Assembly: GCA_003023125.1 (NCBI GenBank)
Contig: PXSY01000023.1
Location: 1 to 5,537 of the forward strand
DNA length: 5,537 bases
Direction: 5' to 3'
Origin: Bacteroidetes bacterium QH_10_64_19
GTDB taxonomy: Bacteria > Bacteroidota > Rhodothermia > Rhodothermales > Salinibacteraceae
Of this stretch, positions 1 to 5,537 are shown in pieces. A model generated the notes under the pieces. It was not told the DNA's origin and did no database searches. It saw only the letters and a program-made list of their open reading frames with translations. Positions within the stretch are counted from its first letter, which is position 1. Each line of letters begins with the position of its first letter. The translations under genes were made by a program, and so were the position numbers.

Positions 1-650
1 GGGAAGATGTCGCTGTGTCCGCTTGTGACGACCTGGTGCCCCGCTTTAACGGGCTCGGTCTGCACGACGTGGTCGAGCCGGAGTCGGTCGAGTTGCTCGC
101 CGTCCCACCGCACAATGCCTTCGGCCTGCACGGGCTGGATGAGCCCGGGGACCCGAAAGTCGGTATTGAGGAACGGCATCACGCGGGCGTACTTCTCGTT
201 CGCCAGCACGACGGTGCCCACGATTCCTTGTTCGTGCACCACCGGCATGCCCTCGGTGACCCCATCGGCCCGGCCCACATCCAGCGTCAAGGAATTGTCC
301 TGTTGGAAAATGTCCTTCGTCACGATGCGGGCGGCGCGGACCGGCGCCTCGCTCGAATCGGTGAGCTCCAGCAGGCGGGCCAGTTCGTCGTTTCGCTGGC
401 GCACGGCCCGGGTCCGGGCGACCTCGCTGGACAGACGAATGTTTTCGCGGCGGAGCTCATCATTGCGGTTGAGGGCCTGCAGGTACTGGCCCATCCACGC
501 AAACGTGTTTTCGACCTGCGCCGTCATGCCCATCGCGTGGGTCCGGACGGTGCGGAGCAGGGGCTGGTTCTGCGTGACCATGACCCCACCTGCGACGAGC
601 AGGAGAGTGCTGAGGAGGAGCCAATCGCCGGGCTGGTTGTTCGAGGCCAT
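1..650 (-). CDS. mreC: Rod shape-determining protein MreC, N-terminal 216 residues (gene runs off the left edge)
   Basis: MreC is a bitopic inner-membrane protein that links cytoplasmic MreB filaments to the periplasmic wall-elongation enzymes (MreD, RodA, PBP2). The reading frame from ATG at 650 stays open to the window edge. It shows a short polar N-terminus, one hydrophobic membrane segment at about residues 10-26 (WLLLSTLLLVAGGVMV), and a long heptad-like helix at about residues 44-96 that fits the MreC dimerising coiled coil. The periplasmic beta domain follows, with family-type stretches such as DVGRADGVTEGMPV, GIVGTVV and VTSGHSDIFP. The C-terminal part, about a quarter of a usual MreC, lies outside the window. 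The start is 67 nt after the mreB stop on the same strand, so co-transcription is likely. No Shine-Dalgarno precedes the ATG. The assignment rests on domain layout and motifs together with the mreB neighbour. Confidence 0.93.
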   Translation of the reverse strand, partial: MASNNQPGDWLLLSTLLLVAGGVMVTQNQPLLRTVRTHAMGMTAQVENTFAWMGQYLQALNRNDELRRENIRLSSEVARTRAVRQRNDELARLLELTDSSEAPVRAARIVTKDIFQQDNSLTLDVGRADGVTEGMPVVHEQGIVGTVVLANEKYARVMPFLNTDFRVPGLIQPVQAEGIVRWDGEQLDRLRLDHVVQTEPVKAGHQVVTSGHSDIF

Positions 651-717
651 CGGCGCGGGGCGTCAGGGTTCAGAAGGCCGACGGGGGACGAGCGAGGCGG
701 GGGAGAGGCGCTCGCCG

Positions 718-1725
718 TCAGGTTAAGACGCGCTCGTAGTCCTCCAGGTTTTCGAGCACTTCGCCGGTGCCGCGGACGACGGCTTTCAGGGGATCCTCGG
801 CCACATAGACGGGGAGCTCGACGCGCTCCCGGAGCATCTGGTCGATGCCTTCGAGGAGGGCCCCGCCGCCGGTCATCATAATGCCGCGTTCCAGGACGTC
901 CGCGCCGAGTTCGGGAGGCGTGCGTTCGAGCGTGCGGAGGACCGCGGCGCTAATCTGCTCGAGGTTGTCGTACAGCGCATCCCGCACGTTTACCGACGAG
1001 ATGGTGCGGACTTTTGGGACGCCACTGACGAGGTCGCGGCCCTTCACCGACAGCTCCAGTTCGGTGTCCAGCTCGACGGCACTGCCCACCTCGCACTTGA
1101 TCCGCTCGGCCGTACGGGAGCCGATGAGGAGGTTGTGGTTTCGCTTGAAGTACTCGACGATGGCCTTGTCCAGCTCCGAGCCCCCCACGCGAAGCGACTC
1201 GTCGAGCACGATGCCGGAAAGGGCGATGACGGCGATCTCGGTGGTGCCCCCGCCAATGTCTACGACCATGTTGCCCACCGCCTCTGTGATATCGAGCCCG
1301 ATGCCAATCGCGGCGGCCATCGGCTCGGAGACGAGGTTGACCTTTCGGGCGCCGGCGTGCTCCGCGGAGTCGCGTACGGCCCGCTTCTCCACCTCTGTGA
1401 TGCCGCTCGGGACGCAGACGACCATGCTCCGGATCGAGGTGAGCCAGTTGTTTTTCACCTTCCGGAGCAGGCCCTGAATCATTTCCTCCGCCACCTTGAA
1501 GTCGGCGATCACGCCGTCGCGCAGGGGCCAGATTGTTTCGATATCCTGGTGGGTGCGCTCGTGCATCTGGAGCGCCTCGAATCCGATTTCGCGCACCTCA
1601 TCGGTGTCGGAGTCGACCACGACGATGCTCGGCTCATTGAGGACGATCCCCTCGCCGCGGATGTACACGAGCGTGTTGGCCGTGCCCAGGTCGATGGCGA
1701 CGTCCTGCGAGAAGTTGAAAAACAT
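718..1725 (-). CDS. mreB: Rod shape-determining protein MreB (bacterial actin), complete, 335 aa
   Basis: MreB is an ATP-binding actin homologue whose membrane-bound filaments guide the cell-wall elongation complex. Visible motifs are phosphate loop 1 DLGTANT (residues 12-18), phosphate loop 2 DIGGGTT (156-162) and the adenosine motif MMTGGGALL (from 283). Family stretches VPSGITEVEKRAV and SEPMAAAIGIGL are also present. The length of 335 aa is normal for the family. The frame is open up to an ATG at 1770, but I place the start at ATG 1725. The protein then begins MFFNFSQDVAIDLGTANT, matching the usual short hydrophobic MreB N-terminus that contacts the membrane; the 15 extra residues look like untranslated leader. 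No Shine-Dalgarno is seen. mreC follows 67 nt downstream and a purH remnant lies 159 nt upstream on the same strand, the usual Bacteroidota order. The identification is essentially certain; the start is well supported. Confidence 0.97.
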   Translation of the reverse strand: MFFNFSQDVAIDLGTANTLVYIRGEGIVLNEPSIVVVDSDTDEVREIGFEALQMHERTHQDIETIWPLRDGVIADFKVAEEMIQGLLRKVKNNWLTSIRSMVVCVPSGITEVEKRAVRDSAEHAGARKVNLVSEPMAAAIGIGLDITEAVGNMVVDIGGGTTEIAVIALSGIVLDESLRVGGSELDKAIVEYFKRNHNLLIGSRTAERIKCEVGSAVELDTELELSVKGRDLVSGVPKVRTISSVNVRDALYDNLEQISAAVLRTLERTPPELGADVLERGIMMTGGGALLEGIDQMLRERVELPVYVAEDPLKAVVRGTGEVLENLEDYERVLT

Positions 1726-1804
1726 CGATGCTACTGTGATGGAGGCCGAATGGGGCGAGGGAGGTGTCAAGGCAACCAGGCCTGAAAGCCGTGGGGCCGC
1801 CCTG

Positions 1805-1842
1805 TGGGGAACACGTAGACTTCTGGGGAACTGTTGGGGGAC
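1805..1842 (-). repeat. Three short GTTCCCCA-type repeats in the purH-mreB gap
   Basis: On the minus strand the 159-nt gap between purH and mreB holds GTTCCCCA twice (1831-1824 and 1812-1805) and a one-mismatch copy GTCCCCCA (1842-1835). The spacings, 11 and 19 nt, are irregular. They lie 80-117 nt upstream of the mreB start, where an mreB promoter or regulator site could be. In a GC-rich gap such short repeats can arise by chance, so any regulatory role is only a suggestion. I see no convincing -35/-10 pair in the gap. Confidence 0.3.
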
Positions 1843-1884
1843 CAGAGCGCTGGCGAGCGAGATGGGGACGTGGACGACGCGGGC

Positions 1885-2370
1885 TCAGTGCCGAAAGTGA
1901 CGACGACCGGTGAGGATCATGGTCACGTCTCGCTCGTCGGCGGCCTCGATCACGTCGTCGTCCCGGATGGACCCGCCGGGTTGGATGGCGGCCCGGACCC
2001 CCTCGTCCGCCGCTGCGACCAGCCCGTCGGCAAATGGGAAAAATGCGTCGGACGCTACCACGGAGCCGCTAAGGTCAAGTTCCGACTTTTGCGCCTTGAA
2101 CACCGCAAGTTCAGACGCGTCGATCCGGCTCATCTGTCCGGCCCCTATCCCCAGCGTGGCCCGGTCTTTCGCGTACACGATGGCGTTGCTCTTCACGTGC
2201 TTCGCCACCCGCCAGGCAAAGTCAAGGTCGCTCCGCTCACCGTCGGTGGGGGCGCGGGCGGTGGGCACGTTCCAGCGGTCGTGGAGGTCCGCAGCCGGGG
2301 GGAGTGCGGGGTCGGGCGTCTGAACGAGAAACCCGCCGAGGACCGACCGAACGTCGGGGCGATCGGAGTC
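1885..2370 (-). pseudogene. purH: purH remnant: C-terminal ~160 residues of AICAR transformylase/IMP cyclohydrolase
   Basis: PurH is a bifunctional cytoplasmic enzyme for the last two steps of IMP synthesis: formylation of AICAR with 10-formyl-THF, then ring closure to IMP. The minus-strand frame ending at the stop 1885-1887 carries clear C-terminal motifs in family order: [60 protein letters not shown] and the terminal TGRRHFRH. Homology ends near 2353-2370; upstream the same frame is only antisense to a methyltransferase gene. A full PurH is about 510-530 aa. The whole N-terminal cyclohydrolase domain and the catalytic Lys-His region of the transformylase are therefore missing, and no purH start is available. 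The remaining frame has no stops or frameshifts, so the damage is either recent or an assembly artefact. The gene lies upstream of mreB on the same strand, as in Bacteroidota. Identity is certain; the exact break is uncertain by about 30 nt. Confidence 0.9.
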
Positions 2371-2385
2371 GCGGTGGGCCGCTTC
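2353..2385. other. Junction joining two 5'-truncated, divergently pointing genes
   Basis: Left of this stretch the minus strand encodes PurH (last recognisable residues about DSDRPDVRS, codons 2370-2344). Right of it the plus strand encodes a methyltransferase (first recognisable residues about [11 protein letters not shown], from about 2380). No linker or start codon region for either gene lies between, and no insertion-sequence end or long repeat is visible. The simplest reading is a deletion that removed the 5' end of purH, whatever lay between, and the 5' end of the methyltransferase. A chimeric assembly would look the same. The breakpoint cannot be placed to the base without an intact relative. 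Confidence 0.7.
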
Positions 2386-2736
2386 GTGCCGCACGACGCG
2401 ACGGCCCTCCCGTATCCGAAAAACACCTTCGACGCGCTCTTCTCGAGCTACTTGATCGACGTGCTTCCGACCCCATCCATTCGCCCGACGCTCCGGGAAA
2501 TGCGCCGGGTTCTCCGCCCCACCGGTCGCCTCGTCCTCGTTTATCTTGCCTCCCCCCGACGGCCGATCGAGCGGGCCTGGGCGTCGGCGGCGTCGGCCCT
2601 CGTCCCCCTCTTCGGCGGGGCCCGTCCGGTCCGGGTGCGCCCCCACCTCGAGGGGACGGGGCTGGTCCCGACACGCGAAACGACGTGCTCGCAGCGGGGG
2701 CTCCGGTCAAAAATTATCCGGGCCGCCCCGGCATGA
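2374..2736 (+). pseudogene. Remnant of a class I SAM-dependent methyltransferase (C-terminal ~120 residues)
   Basis: The plus-strand frame ending at TGA 2734-2736 reads, from about 2380, like the second half of a UbiE/Methyltransf_11-type enzyme. It has an acidic-loop region HDATALPYP, the motif IV stretch [15 protein letters not shown], then [19 protein letters not shown], the usual helix and strand after motif IV. The C-terminal tail ends [11 protein letters not shown]. Missing is the N-terminal part with the glycine-rich SAM-binding motif I, so the remnant should not bind SAM. The frame is open leftward to 1834, but that part is antisense to purH and not methyltransferase-like. The substrate cannot be told. 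The frame after the break is intact, which suggests a recent break or an artefact. Confidence 0.75.
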
Positions 2737-2758
2737 GCCTGTAAGGCAGCCTCCGTCC

Positions 2759-2772
2759 GGGCCCCGAGGCCC
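2759..2772 (+). terminator. Small GC hairpin after the methyltransferase remnant (weak terminator candidate)
   Basis: GGGCC (2759-2763) pairs perfectly with GGCCC (2768-2772) across a CCGA loop, 22 nt after the methyltransferase stop. Only two T residues follow, so it lacks the U-tract of a standard intrinsic terminator. It could be a weak or factor-assisted end for the upstream gene, or chance in a GC-rich gap. It also abuts the candidate -35 of the trp promoter. Confidence 0.25.
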
Positions 2773-2801
2773 TTGACCGGGAGAACGCTGTCCCGTACCC
2801 T
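2773..2801 (+). promoter_or_regulatory. Candidate promoter for the trp leader/trpE transcript
   Basis: TTGACC (2773-2778) resembles a sigma-70 -35 box (5 of 6), followed after 17 nt by TACCCT (2796-2801), which keeps only the most conserved T, A and final T of a -10 box. Initiation would fall near 2807-2812, at or just before the leader-peptide ATG at 2812. That would make the leader mRNA nearly leaderless, which would fit the absence of any Shine-Dalgarno there. The placement upstream of an attenuator makes a promoter necessary somewhere here, but this pair is only a moderate match. Confidence 0.4.
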
Positions 2802-2811
2802 TGCTAGTGTT

Positions 2812-2892
2812 ATGAACTACTCGGCTCCTTCCACGACACAGAACTGGCGCTGGTGGCCCCCTCTCAGGGTCCAGGGCCGTCTGTGCGTGTGA
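2812..2892 (+). CDS. trpL: trp operon leader peptide, 26 aa, with a Trp-Arg-Trp-Trp run
   Basis: A 26-codon ORF from ATG 2812 to TGA 2890-2892 begins MNYSAPSTTQN and continues with WRWW: Trp codons at 2845-2847, 2851-2853 and 2854-2856. Trp is the rarest common residue, so three in four codons in a tiny ORF ahead of trpE is the signature of an attenuation leader peptide. Its role is regulatory: a ribosome stalling at these codons when charged tRNA-Trp is low exposes the RNA just downstream. The Trp codons end 10 nt before the antiterminator's 5' arm begins (2867), a fitting distance for a stalled ribosome to leave that arm free. A ribosome that reaches the stop codon would cover or approach it. 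No Shine-Dalgarno is seen before the ATG. The peptide itself is not expected to have another function. The call is strong because codon content, RNA structure and the downstream gene all agree. Confidence 0.9.
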   Translation: MNYSAPSTTQNWRWWPPLRVQGRLCV

Positions 2893-2961
2893 TGGGCGCA
2901 GTCGCTTTTGTGCTGTTTGGCTCTGGACCCGCTGCTCTCGAGGGCAGCGGGTTTTTCTTTT
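2852..2961 (+). promoter_or_regulatory. Ribosome-mediated trp attenuator (antiterminator/terminator switch)
   Basis: Four RNA segments can be paired in two exclusive ways. The antiterminator pairs 2867-2878 (GGGTCCAGGGCC) with 2919-2930 (GGCTCTGGACCC): 12 pairs with one G-U. The terminator pairs 2928-2937 with 2942-2951 and is followed by a T-rich tract. The two share bases 2928-2930, so only one can form. A third pairing, 2852-2859 with 2874-2881 (8 pairs, two G-U), would sequester the antiterminator's 5' arm when the leader is translated freely. This 1:2, 2:3, 3:4 layout is the E. coli trp design. Low charged tRNA-Trp stalls the ribosome at the Trp codons 2845-2856, the 2:3 helix forms and trpE is transcribed. 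High Trp allows termination before trpE. Pairings were read by eye; energies were not computed. Confidence 0.88.
2928..2961 (+). terminator. Intrinsic terminator of the trp attenuator
   Basis: CCCGCTGCTC (2928-2937) pairs with GGGCAGCGGG (2942-2951), ten pairs with one G-U, around a TCGA loop. TTTTTCTTTT (2952-2961) follows directly. It ends 27 nt before the trpE ATG at 2989, so it stops transcription before trpE rather than ending an upstream gene. Confidence 0.92.
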
Positions 2962-2988
2962 GGCCTTTCGATTCGGCTCGTTCGGCAG

Positions 2989-3051
2989 ATGACGTTTGAC
3001 AACTTTCGCTCTCACATTTAGGCCGCCCGCCAGCAGGGACGGGATCGTCTC
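2989..3051 (+). other. Apparent first 21 codons of trpE, interrupted by an in-frame TAG at codon 11
   Basis: ATG at 2989, placed right after the attenuator, opens a frame in phase with trpE. It reads MTFDNFRSHI, then TAG (3019-3021), then AARQQGRDRLV, and joins the TrpE body at 3052. TrpE proteins usually have about 20 residues of this kind before the conserved P-V...LTPVSAFL region, so these codons look like genuine N-terminal coding sequence. A single C-to-T change from CAG (Gln) would create the TAG. It could be a real nonsense mutation, a sequencing error, or non-coding DNA that resembles coding sequence. If real, translation must restart at GTG 3052 or 3055. Confidence 0.6.
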
Positions 3052-4497
3052 GTGGTGCCGGTGTCGGTCCGGCGAAGCGCCGACCTCCTGACCCCCGTCT
3101 CGGCATTTCTCTCCCTCCGCGAGGAATCGACTTACAGCTTCCTGTTCGAAAGCGTGGAGGGCGGCGAGAAACTCGCGCGCTACTCGTTTCTCGGGCGCAA
3201 CCCCTACCGGATCGTGCGGGCGACCGACTTCGGGGCGTCGGTGGAGGTCGAGGAGCGGCGGACGCCGGGCCCCGAAGAGGAGCTCGATCGCCCCGACGGC
3301 AGCATCTTTGAGGTATTGGATCAGTACCTCGATCGATACGCCGAAATCACTCTCCCGGACCTCCCCCGACTCCGCGGTGGGGCCGTGGGCTACCTGGGCT
3401 ACGATGCCGTGCGGCTCGTCGAGGACCTGCCCGACGCCCCGCCCGACGACCTCGGTCTGCCCGACGCCGTCTGGTGCTTCTACGACACGGTCGCGGCCTT
3501 CGACCACGTCCACCACCAGCTCGTGCTGATCGCCAATGCCTTCGTCGACGCCGACACCGACCTGACGGCCGCCTACAGAAATGCGCAGACGCGCCTTGCG
3601 GACCTGGAGCACAGCCTGACGCGACCCACCCCGAGCCCATATCCCGTCGAATGGACCGACGAGGAGCTTTCGTCAAACGTCGAGCGTCCGGTGTTCGAAG
3701 ACGCTGTGCGCACGGCCAAAGAGCACGTGGAGCGGGGCGACATCTTTCAGGTCGTCCTCTCCCAGCGGTTCGGGACGCAGTTCGAGGGCGACCGCTTTAA
3801 CCTCTACCGGGCCCTGCGACAGGTCAATCCTTCCCCGTACCTCTTCTACCTGGACCTGGCCGACCACGCCCTGGTCGGCTCCTCGCCCGAGGTGCTCGTG
3901 CGAGCGGAGGACGGGGTGGCCGAGCTCCTGCCCATCGCCGGCACGCGGCCTCGCGGCGACGACGAAGCCGAGGACGACGCCCTCGCCGACGAGCTCCTGA
4001 ACGACCCGAAGGAACGGGCCGAGCATCTCATGCTCGTGGACCTCGGCCGCAACGACCTGGGGCGGGTCTGCCAGTACGACAGCGTGGAGGTGGACCGGTA
4101 CGCCTACATCGAGCGCTACTCGCACGTCATGCACATCGTGTCGTCGGTCAAGGGCCGCCTCGCCCTCGACCGGGGCCCGATGGACGTGCTCGCCGCCTGC
4201 TTCCCCGCGGGCACCGTCAGTGGGGCCCCGAAGGTGCGCGCCCTGGAAATCATCGACAAGCTCGAACCGACCCGCCGGGGCATCTACGCAGGGGCCGTAG
4301 GCTACGTGGATTACTCCGGCACCCTCGACACCTGCATCGCCATCCGCACGATGGTCGTGACCGACAACACCGCCTACGTGCAGGCCGGGGCGGGCATCGT
4401 GGCCGACAGCGACCCCGCCCGGGAGTACGAGGAAACCTGGAACAAAGCCGCCGCCCTGCGCCAAGCCATGCGCGTGGCCGCCGACGGCCTCTTGTAA
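3052..4497 (+). CDS. trpE: Anthranilate synthase component I (TrpE), 481 aa from GTG 3052
   Basis: TrpE converts chorismate to anthranilate, using ammonia supplied by the glutamine amidotransferase subunit TrpG. It is the first step of Trp synthesis and is cytoplasmic. From GTG 3052 the protein has the N-terminal regulatory domain with FLFES (30-34), equivalent to the LLES element involved in Trp feedback, and NPSPYLFYLDL (from 259), another part of the feedback pocket. The chorismate-binding domain carries PIAGTRPRG (294-302), ERAEHLMLVDLGRND (321-335), PAGTVSGAPK (385-394) and QAGAGIVADSDP (444-455). Ala in PIAGT, rather than the Lys of PabB, supports anthranilate rather than aminodeoxychorismate synthesis. 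TrpE homologues are usually about 490-520 aa; the 21 codons from ATG 2989 would make it 502, but a TAG interrupts them. AGGGACGGGA lies before the GTG and could serve as a weak ribosome site. The preceding attenuator indicates regulation by charged tRNA-Trp. No trpG is in view. The protein is rich in Asp/Glu. Confidence 0.95.
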   Translation: MVPVSVRRSADLLTPVSAFLSLREESTYSFLFESVEGGEKLARYSFLGRNPYRIVRATDFGASVEVEERRTPGPEEELDRPDGSIFEVLDQYLDRYAEITLPDLPRLRGGAVGYLGYDAVRLVEDLPDAPPDDLGLPDAVWCFYDTVAAFDHVHHQLVLIANAFVDADTDLTAAYRNAQTRLADLEHSLTRPTPSPYPVEWTDEELSSNVERPVFEDAVRTAKEHVERGDIFQVVLSQRFGTQFEGDRFNLYRALRQVNPSPYLFYLDLADHALVGSSPEVLVRAEDGVAELLPIAGTRPRGDDEAEDDALADELLNDPKERAEHLMLVDLGRNDLGRVCQYDSVEVDRYAYIERYSHVMHIVSSVKGRLALDRGPMDVLAACFPAGTVSGAPKVRALEIIDKLEPTRRGIYAGAVGYVDYSGTLDTCIAIRTMVVTDNTAYVQAGAGIVADSDPAREYEETWNKAAALRQAMRVAADGLL

Positions 4498-4539
4498 CGT
4501 CGTCGTCGAGGCGGGCCGCCCCCCAAACCTCGCCCCGGG

Positions 4540-4549
4540 CTACCGGTAG
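4540..4549. other. Perfect 10-bp palindrome CTACCGGTAG between trpE and the next gene
   Basis: The 117-nt gap after trpE (4498-4614) holds this perfect palindrome, then a pyrimidine-rich stretch (about 4566-4590) before the next ATG. The palindrome has no loop and no U-tract, so it is not a good terminator. It could be a dimeric-protein site or chance. Otherwise the gap shows no clear terminator or promoter, which leaves read-through from trpE into the next gene possible. Confidence 0.2.
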
Positions 4550-4614
4550 GACAGGCCGAAGGGTCCCGTGCCCTCTTTTCATTCCTTCCCCCGAACCCGT
4601 AACCGATCTCCCTC

Positions 4615-5100
4615 ATGCCGAACCCGATCAAGGAAGCCATTCTGAATCGCGGTTGGGCCGGCAAAACGATTACCCGGTCCGAGACCGTCGAGCGGCTCAA
4701 CCCGTTGATCCTGCAGTTTCTGAAGCTGAACCACAGCTACCAGGCCGTCATTCGGTCCCACGGCGACGCCGCCGTCACCGAGGCCCTCCAGCGGGTGCAG
4801 AAGACGGCCCGGGTCGACGTCGGGAAGTTGTCCGAAACGGTGCTGAGCTGCGGCGGCACGCCAAAGAATGGCACCGACCTGGAACCGGGCGATTTCGATC
4901 TCGGGGACGATGAGATCGACATGCTCGCCCGGCTCGAAACCCTCGAAACCGAGTTCAACGACGCTCTGGCGCGAGAACTCGACGAGGTCGAACACCAGAT
5001 GCGCACCCGCGGCCTCCTCGAAGCCGTGGAGAGCAACAGCAGCGAGCGCCTCGCGTTGCTCTCCGACCTGATCGAGCGTGCCGAGGCCACTATTCGGTAG
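4615..5100 (+). CDS. Acidic helical protein of unknown function, 161 aa
   Basis: I do not recognise this family. ATG 4615 to TAG 5098-5100 gives a 161-aa protein without signal peptide or membrane segment, probably cytoplasmic. It looks almost wholly helical: a helix at about residues 22-47, a second at about 51-79 ending in a Cys-Gly-Gly turn (79-81), an acidic linker DLEPGDFDLGDDE (88-100), then a long helix at about 100-140 and a last one at about 142-159. That is a four-helix-bundle layout. One EVEH (124-127) fits the ExxH spacing of ferritin-like metal sites, but the partner Glu/ExxH on the first helices is not evident, so a ferritin-like fold is only a guess. The gene sits 117 nt after trpE and 246 nt before trpS on the same strand, so it might share the trpE transcript. 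Codon use and acidity match the neighbours, and the frame is clean, so it is very likely a real gene. Confidence 0.85.
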   Translation: MPNPIKEAILNRGWAGKTITRSETVERLNPLILQFLKLNHSYQAVIRSHGDAAVTEALQRVQKTARVDVGKLSETVLSCGGTPKNGTDLEPGDFDLGDDEIDMLARLETLETEFNDALARELDEVEHQMRTRGLLEAVESNSSERLALLSDLIERAEATIR

Positions 5101-5214
5101 CGGATAAGCGATCGCTGGCATACCAGTTCTGGGCGCCTCGCCAAATTCTCGCGTTGCGTATTTCGTCTATCAAGCGTGACCAATCGGAAGTGAGAAGATT
5201 CCATCCCTGACACC

Positions 5215-5264
5215 CTCATGACTCGTGACTCATGACCCGTAACTCATGACTCATCAACTCAGGA
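5215..5264 (+). repeat. Degenerate 7-bp tandem repeat (consensus CTCATGA), six contiguous units plus one offset
   Basis: Contiguous heptamers read CTCATGA (5215), CTCGTGA (5222), CTCATGA (5229), CCCGTAA (5236), CTCATGA (5243) and CTCATCA (5250). After one extra A comes CTCAGGA (5258-5264). Three units are exact and the others differ by one to three bases. The array lies in the gap between the 161-aa gene and trpS, ending 82 nt before the trpS start, and does not overlap any coding frame I accept. It resembles the short heptanucleotide tandem repeats known from cyanobacteria and may vary in copy number by replication slippage. Confidence 0.8.
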
Positions 5265-5276
5265 CTTTTCTTCCCT

Positions 5277-5290
5277 GAAGGCACACCTTC
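5277..5290 (+). other. Small hairpin in the trpS 5' region
   Basis: GAAGG (5277-5281) pairs perfectly with CCTTC (5286-5290) over a CACA loop. It lies just after the heptamer array and 56 nt before the trpS ATG. No U-tract follows, so it is not a terminator. Apart from this hairpin, the array and a palindrome AGCGATCGCT (5107-5116), I see nothing else in the 246-nt gap 5101-5346: no convincing promoter, and none of the conserved features of a T-box. Confidence 0.3.
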
Positions 5291-5346
5291 CTGAGCCTGC
5301 TCCCGACCACTGAAGATCAACGCCCAACGCCAACGGACAAAATTCC

Positions 5347-5537
5347 ATGGACCCCCCCGATACCGCCTCTCCGACCGACGCCGACCCCCCCGACGAAACG
5401 GTCGTCGTATCCGGCATTCAGCCCTCCGGCCGCCTGCACCTCGGCAACTATTTCGGGGCCATTCGGCAGCACATCGACCTCCTCGAGAAGCACGAGGCCT
5501 ACTACTTCATCGTGAACTACCACGCGATGACCACGGT
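5347..5537 (+). CDS. trpS: Tryptophanyl-tRNA synthetase, N-terminal 63 residues (gene runs off the right edge)
   Basis: TrpS is a class Ic aminoacyl-tRNA synthetase that charges tRNA-Trp using ATP. From ATG 5347 the frame stays open to the window end. After an acidic, Pro-rich lead of about 18 residues it shows VVSGIQPSGRLHLGNYFGAI (residues 20-39), in which HLGN (31-34) is the HIGH-type ATP-binding signature in its usual TrpS setting. FIVNYHAMTT (54-63) matches the D/N-Y-H-A-L/M-T segment that follows. No other ATG or GTG start lies between 5347 and the conserved core, so the lead appears genuine. No Shine-Dalgarno is seen (ACAAAATTCC before the ATG). Its place downstream of trpE, which is controlled by charged tRNA-Trp, makes a functional grouping. 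The C-terminal KMSKS motif is out of view. Confidence 0.93.
   Translation, partial: MDPPDTASPTDADPPDETVVVSGIQPSGRLHLGNYFGAIRQHIDLLEKHEAYYFIVNYHAMTT

Follow-up and report, generated by a model that had tools for sequence, protein, structure and literature searches.

A probable ribosome-mediated trp attenuator upstream of trpE in a Salinibacteraceae genome, and similar leaders in the Bacteroidota

In E. coli the trpL leader has Trp codons in a short ORF, RNA segments that form the pairings 1:2, 2:3 and 3:4, and a terminator ahead of trpE. Initiation at leaders of the E. coli type involves a Shine-Dalgarno sequence and a longer 5' UTR. The trp attenuators described for Corynebacterium and Streptomyces have double or triple UGG codons with a classical antiterminator and terminator (PMC1262725), and are similar to the locus discussed here in these described features, but they belong to another phylum. 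Also similar is trpL of Sinorhizobium meliloti, a known leaderless case whose leader RNA has its 5' end at the leader ATG (PMC7298713). It differs in being alphaproteobacterial, in its 14-residue peptide and in the trans roles that are reported there (PMC7298713).

Within the phylum Bacteroidota in the GTDB sense, the transcriptome study of Flavobacterium psychrophilum gave strong clues that operons for amino-acid biosynthesis are preceded by attenuators working through leader peptides (PMC9723704). That case is alike in phylum, in the kind of operon and in the use of leader peptides, but differs in that neither trp nor tryptophan occurs in the main text of the paper. For B. thetaiotaomicron, short ORFs reminiscent of leader peptides are mentioned (PMC7366714). 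In the open-access literature we found no description of a trp attenuator in Bacteroidota or Rhodothermota; earlier predictions may exist.

The window, by which we mean the whole stretch of 5,537 nucleotides analysed, comes from contig PXSY01000023.1 of Bacteroidetes bacterium QH_10_64_19. Like E. coli trpL (RF00513) it has a short ORF with Trp codons, the 1:2, 2:3 and 3:4 pairings and a terminator before trpE. It differs in having no Rfam match, in that helix 2:3 engages no more of the terminator than its base, and in being near-leaderless by prediction with no Shine-Dalgarno sequence. The preliminary description of a complete E. coli-style attenuator thus stands for the parts and the logic but not for the start of the leader. 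It had also called the mechanism not established in Bacteroidota, which is fair, although the F. psychrophilum clues mean that it is not wholly new (PMC9723704). On the sequence evidence given below the element is very probably a ribosome-mediated, cis-acting transcription attenuator of trpE. The kind of attenuator is known, and its extent and leaderless design appear undescribed in the open-access literature found; what is new is this member, the probable leaderless start and the spread over the phylum.

The leader and its surroundings in the window

The features are given in Table 1. Translation of the leader ORF confirmed the 26 codons and three Trp codons first described, and an intrinsic terminator stands between this tandem-Trp ORF and trpE, with an antiterminator that excludes it and a 1:2 hairpin present in the fold of the window RNA.

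Table 1. Features of the trp leader and trpE in the window
Feature	Position	Strand	Details
-35-like element TTGACC	2773..2778	+	putative leader promoter; pattern common to relatives' leaders
-10-like element TACCCT	2796..2801	+	spacer 17; 10 nt to ATG; predicted RNA start near 2808
Leader peptide ORF	2812..2892	+	26 codons and stop (2890-2892); encodes MNYSAPSTTQNWRWWPPLRVQGRLCV
Regulatory Trp codons (putative)	2845..2856	+	TGG at 2845, 2851 and 2854
Segment 1	2845..2859	+	pairs with segment 2 (1:2 hairpin) in minimum-energy fold of free window leader
Segment 2, antiterminator 5' strand	2867..2878	+	starts 13 nt after first base of last Trp codon
Segment 3, antiterminator 3' strand	2919..2930	+	overlaps base of terminator 5' arm
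Intrinsic terminator hairpin (3:4)	2926..2953	+	as folded; 12 pairs, 2926-2937 with 2942-2953
T tract TTTTTCTTTT	2952..2961	+	T5CT4
trpE	2989..4497	+	TIGR00564; start by relatives 2989; in-frame TAG 3019-3021; next start GTG 3052

In the antiterminator, GGGTCCAGGGCC at 2867-2878 pairs with GGCTCTGGACCC at 2919-2930 through 12 pairs, one of them G-U, in agreement with the helix first claimed. The 10-bp terminator with its T5CT4 tract was likewise borne out, direct counting giving 10 pairs (2928-2937 with 2942-2951) and folding 12. The two helices do share 2928-2930 and exclude each other as had been proposed, with an overlap that is small in the window, being 3 nt (2928-2930) by count and 5 nt (2926-2930) by fold. 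The comparison of folding energies that had been suggested was carried out against dinucleotide shuffles, and gave -22.7 kcal/mol for the terminator (z -3.53) and -36.4 kcal/mol for the antiterminator stretch (z -4.38). The whole leader folds at -76.7 kcal/mol (z -3.22), and none of 200 shuffles was as stable.

Reading of the window sequence found no Shine-Dalgarno-like stretch before the leader ATG. The promoter-like pair was looked for with the pattern TTGnnn-(16..19)-TAnnnT-(4..13)-ATG, the ATG being in frame with the leader. It ends 6-13 nt 5' of the leader ATG in 107 of 113 leaders, with 94 at 6-10 nt, whereas in 50 rounds of shuffled upstream DNA the mean was 4.06 and the maximum 9. In F. 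psychrophilum the element TAnnTTTG is mapped at -12 to -5 (PMC9723704), and with this placement the window RNA is predicted to start about 4 nt 5' of the leader ATG. The trp leader mRNA is thus probably nearly leaderless, its 5' UTR being predicted at about 4 nt. Such a placement is unusual, as leaderless mRNAs make up 5.5% in F. psychrophilum (PMC9723704) and 5' UTRs of less than 10 nt about 3.7% in B. thetaiotaomicron (PMC7366714).

The predicted near-leaderless form resembles the rnTrpL/peTrpL leader of S. meliloti (PMC7298713), and by analogy the released leader RNA or peptide could work in trans, besides or instead of control in cis. However the peptide varies widely between clades outside the Trp run, so that a conserved function of the peptide is not suggested, and we consider action in trans highly unlikely.

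Neither the Trp_leader model (RF00513), at gathering threshold, nor a T-box was matched in the window and 20 loci of relatives, and the RF00513 model does detect the E. coli control; on the leader region there were only two Rfam matches, far below gathering score and with E-values above 1. T-box and TRAP devices control trp genes in Firmicutes (PMC3766115, which treats the TRAP of Bacillales and also the spread of T-boxes), and one of these or a riboswitch might in principle sense Trp and act on the same terminator. As no Rfam family reached its gathering score in the window, and two tRNA genes alone did so in the 20 relatives, we regard this as extremely improbable, and keep to a leader read by the ribosome.

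The gene downstream was identified as trpE by profile search (TIGR00564, E 3.4e-170 over 3052-4494). By eye, the trpE start of relatives falls at the site of the window ATG 2989, and these kin read through at the site of the TAG; in the window the TAG at 3019-3021 means that the long trpE ORF begins only at GTG 3052. The window trpE may be broken, or may start at GTG 3052, or the TAG base may be a sequence error. After trpE come a small ORF with a sub-threshold DUF2383 match and then the start of trpS (window 4615-5537). DNA matching trpE, the DUF2383-like ORF and trpS is in the same order at the Salinibacter ruber locus (L117, see below), and as this order is kept the attenuator might also govern tryptophanyl-tRNA synthetase. 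On the other side of the leader, at 1885-2736, the minus strand carries a C-terminal part of purH and, abutting it, the plus strand carries a C-terminal part of a methyltransferase; neither looks whole, and a rearrangement or an assembly junction is possible.

Occurrence before trpE in the phylum

For comparison 395 genomes were drawn evenly from one GTDB phylum, reached via a SusC-rich genome (G142). The draw includes the closest kin of the window, with TrpE matching at up to 85%, and also a genome, G306, in which bases 1-5000 of pSR35, a plasmid of S. ruber DSM 13855, are present at 100%, so that L117 is very probably from S. ruber DSM 13855. GTDB places Rhodothermia inside Bacteroidota, and with these genomes in the draw we take the sampled phylum to be Bacteroidota. 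TrpE was matched at E <= 1e-100 in 231 of the 395 genomes. The survey covers 149 loci, these being the 150 listed of the 231 less G491, in which the match lacks the N terminus; it leaves out 81 further genomes with TrpE and the 164 with no such match, and L162 is clipped by a contig end. From the family of the nearest kin 27 genomes were covered, and TrpE reached E <= 1e-120 in 21 of them.

In the last 400 nt 5' of trpE, a terminator was called in 109 of the 149 listed loci, and an ATG ORF with WW precedes a terminator in 95 (with WWW in 77). The next commonest doublets in that position were SS (33) and NN (30). The reverse strand gave 6 terminators and no WW, and ten shuffled sets gave 0-3 terminators and no WW in each. 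With a looser rule (W.{0,2}W within 450 nt) leader and terminator were found in 101 of the 149 loci, distributed by falling TrpE match as 20/30, 51/66, 30/38 and 0/15. By the same rule 18 of the 21 family loci have a Trp-rich leader and terminator; those not called are L153, which has only 80 nt upstream, L155, in which a Trp-rich ORF and hairpin can be seen by eye, and L156. The independent origin raised in the preliminary description is, as an isolated event, not supported by these counts. We conclude from the comparison that a trp attenuator is probably common to the family of the window and spread widely in the phylum. Its retention at roughly two out of three of the Bacteroidota trpE loci surveyed would imply that ribosomes in these bacteria trail RNA polymerase closely enough to control termination, and the trp leader would then be a ready-made reporter for transcription-translation coupling.

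The 48 listed loci with no call include L124-L128, L133 and L135 (64-66% TrpE identity) and all of L261-L275, and ten of the uncalled loci have a Trp-rich ORF but no qualifying terminator. Two of the group in which none was called, L124 and L128, have a Trp-rich ORF upstream of trpE with no called terminator.

Upstream of hisG in the family of the window, a terminator was called in none of 25 loci (L276-L300). There is thus no His leader with a terminator among them, and attenuation by intrinsic terminator was not seen at hisG; two of these loci (L278 and L291) have an upstream ORF with four or more His. This bears on an alternative in which the hairpin before trpE terminates without regulation, either closing a transcript from upstream or insulating trpE, and the Trp codons are incidental. 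There is indeed a candidate upstream transcript, as the plus-strand ORF with the methyltransferase-like piece has its end at 2736, some 190 nt 5' of the hairpin. However the promoter-like pair that nearly all of the leaders share is placed between this ORF and the leader ORF, and the combination of Trp-rich leader and terminator at 101 of 149 trpE loci, with none of 25 before hisG, speaks against this alternative. An unregulated terminator is in our judgement very unlikely, and regulation through the Trp codons remains the preferred reading.

Among 110 other loci, none titled Bacteroidota, three have an ORF containing Trp codons together with a terminator before trpE (L012, L035 and L101); in this set L083 repeats the L006 locus, and L083-L112 might include a member of the Bacteroidota. 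The three, with titles that include Spirochaetales and Proteobacteria, could be attenuators in further lineages or could be due to chance. A contig scan for relatives gave only other groups among the matches listed (L040 and L074 are titled just 'bacterium'), and a search of viral contigs and plasmids gave no useful relative.

Coupled change and geometry of the class I leaders

In the 13 nearest leaders, 91.7% of the antiterminator cells and 95.7% of the terminator cells pair, far above the values for slid versions. Two-sided changes number 1 in the antiterminator and 2 in the terminator, which is not above column shuffles, and two middle pairs of the antiterminator fail in 8 and 4 of the 13 leaders. 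Of the check on relatives that had been proposed, the part concerning Trp codons and complementary segments came out well, both being kept, but covariation in the nearest leaders was too slight to serve as proof and was rejected as such; tests with swapped partners over clades were used instead. Conservation is strong among the nearest leaders, and it is the wider set that supplies the evidence for coupled change.

The main part of that wider set is class I, comprising 83 loci (the window, 71 phylum loci and 11 further family loci). The leader segment scores 20.6 against its own terminator 5' arm, 17.4 against swapped arms and 13.2 when the leaders are shuffled, and the own-partner score was reached by none of 20,000 permutations. 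Flanking DNA showed no clear effect against the 5' arm, own scores being reached in 505 of 5000 permutations for DNA upstream of the ORF and 2139 of 5000 for DNA downstream of the terminator; class I DNA upstream of the ORF had a small effect against the loop and 3' arm (42 of 5000). Tested singly against the 5' arm, 66 of 113 loci have p <= 0.05, the window being at 0.04. Segment and terminator have thus changed together, clade by clade.

In 82 of the 83 class I loci the best segment begins 11 nt or more beyond the last Trp codon, so that a ribosome stalled at that codon would leave segment 2 free, and one that had reached the stop would be in contact with segment 2 in 67 of the 83. Folding of the window RNA gave the 1:2 and 3:4 hairpins for the free RNA, the antiterminator with a shortened hairpin when the RNA is free from 2867 onwards, as for a ribosome at the last Trp codon, and the full terminator when it is free from 2903 onwards, as for a ribosome at the stop. 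A ribosome placed at the first Trp codon leaves a best fold in which the terminator is almost complete. At equilibrium, the mean pair probability of the window terminator is 0.58 for the last Trp codon and 0.73 for the first. For class I the median terminator probability is 0.89 stalled and 0.90 at the stop, and the stalled value is below 0.5 in 12 of the 83. Since the terminator keeps a high probability in the stalled state too, equilibrium folding was rejected as sole proof of the switch, and we infer that switching would have to be kinetic, like that of classical attenuators. A sequestration test looks at upstream pairing of the terminator 5' arm before its 3' arm exists, and for class I the median paired upstream was 0.70 stalled, 0.28 at the stop, and 0.53 stalled with a shuffled spacer. 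The window itself is weak in this test (0.46 stalled, 0.37 at the stop and 0.67 with a shuffled spacer).

We suggest that control would operate as follows. RNA polymerase would start about 4 nt 5' of the leader AUG, and a ribosome would then load at the extreme 5' end of the RNA with no Shine-Dalgarno sequence and translate the leader. With Trp-tRNA plentiful it would proceed to the stop codon at 2890, with segment 2 either covered or left paired with segment 1; with segment 2 unavailable the terminator at 2926-2953 would form and transcription would end in the T tract. Under a shortage of Trp-tRNA the ribosome would stall on the Trp codons with segment 2 just past its front edge, and pairing of segment 2 (2867-2878) with 2919-2930 would remove the basal pairs of the terminator beside the T tract. 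The terminator being thus disarmed, transcription would enter trpE and perhaps continue to trpS.

A possible second wiring in class II leaders

There is a further block, L225-L260, contiguous by TrpE rank, in which ungapped comparison with the terminator 5' arm showed little match. It was for this reason delimited as class II, with 30 Bacteroidia-like leaders, and the loop plus 3' arm was tried as partner; the second wiring was thus suggested by the same data that were used to test it. The class II segment scores 19.0 against its own loop and 3' arm, 15.7 swapped and 13.2 shuffled, with none of 20,000 permutations reaching the own score, and 16 of the 30 leaders have p <= 0.05 singly. Against the 5' arm the effect is slight, 11.7 for own partners and about 10.6-10.7 permuted (0 of 5000 permutations). 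The segment starts at a median of 23 nt past the last Trp codon, and in 28 of the 30 it could be reached by a ribosome on the stop codon. Equilibrium folding showed no switch in class II, the median terminator probability being 0.97 in every state.

From these data we would put forward tentatively, rating its chances at a little under even, the proposal that Bacteroidota widely use near-leaderless trp attenuators in two wirings. One, the classical 2:3 pairing, would work by capture of the terminator 5' arm, in Rhodothermota and a second large group; in the other, in Bacteroidia-like members, the segment at the leader stop codon (often CTCAGUGA) would capture the loop and 3' arm and so invade the hairpin via its loop. 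If this is true, both wirings would make transcription-translation coupling in Bacteroidota directly testable. In many of the L225-L260 leaders the promoter element resembles TATCTTTGC, which is the TAnnTTTG version of the -7 element in Bacteroidota (PMC9723704, PMC7366714).
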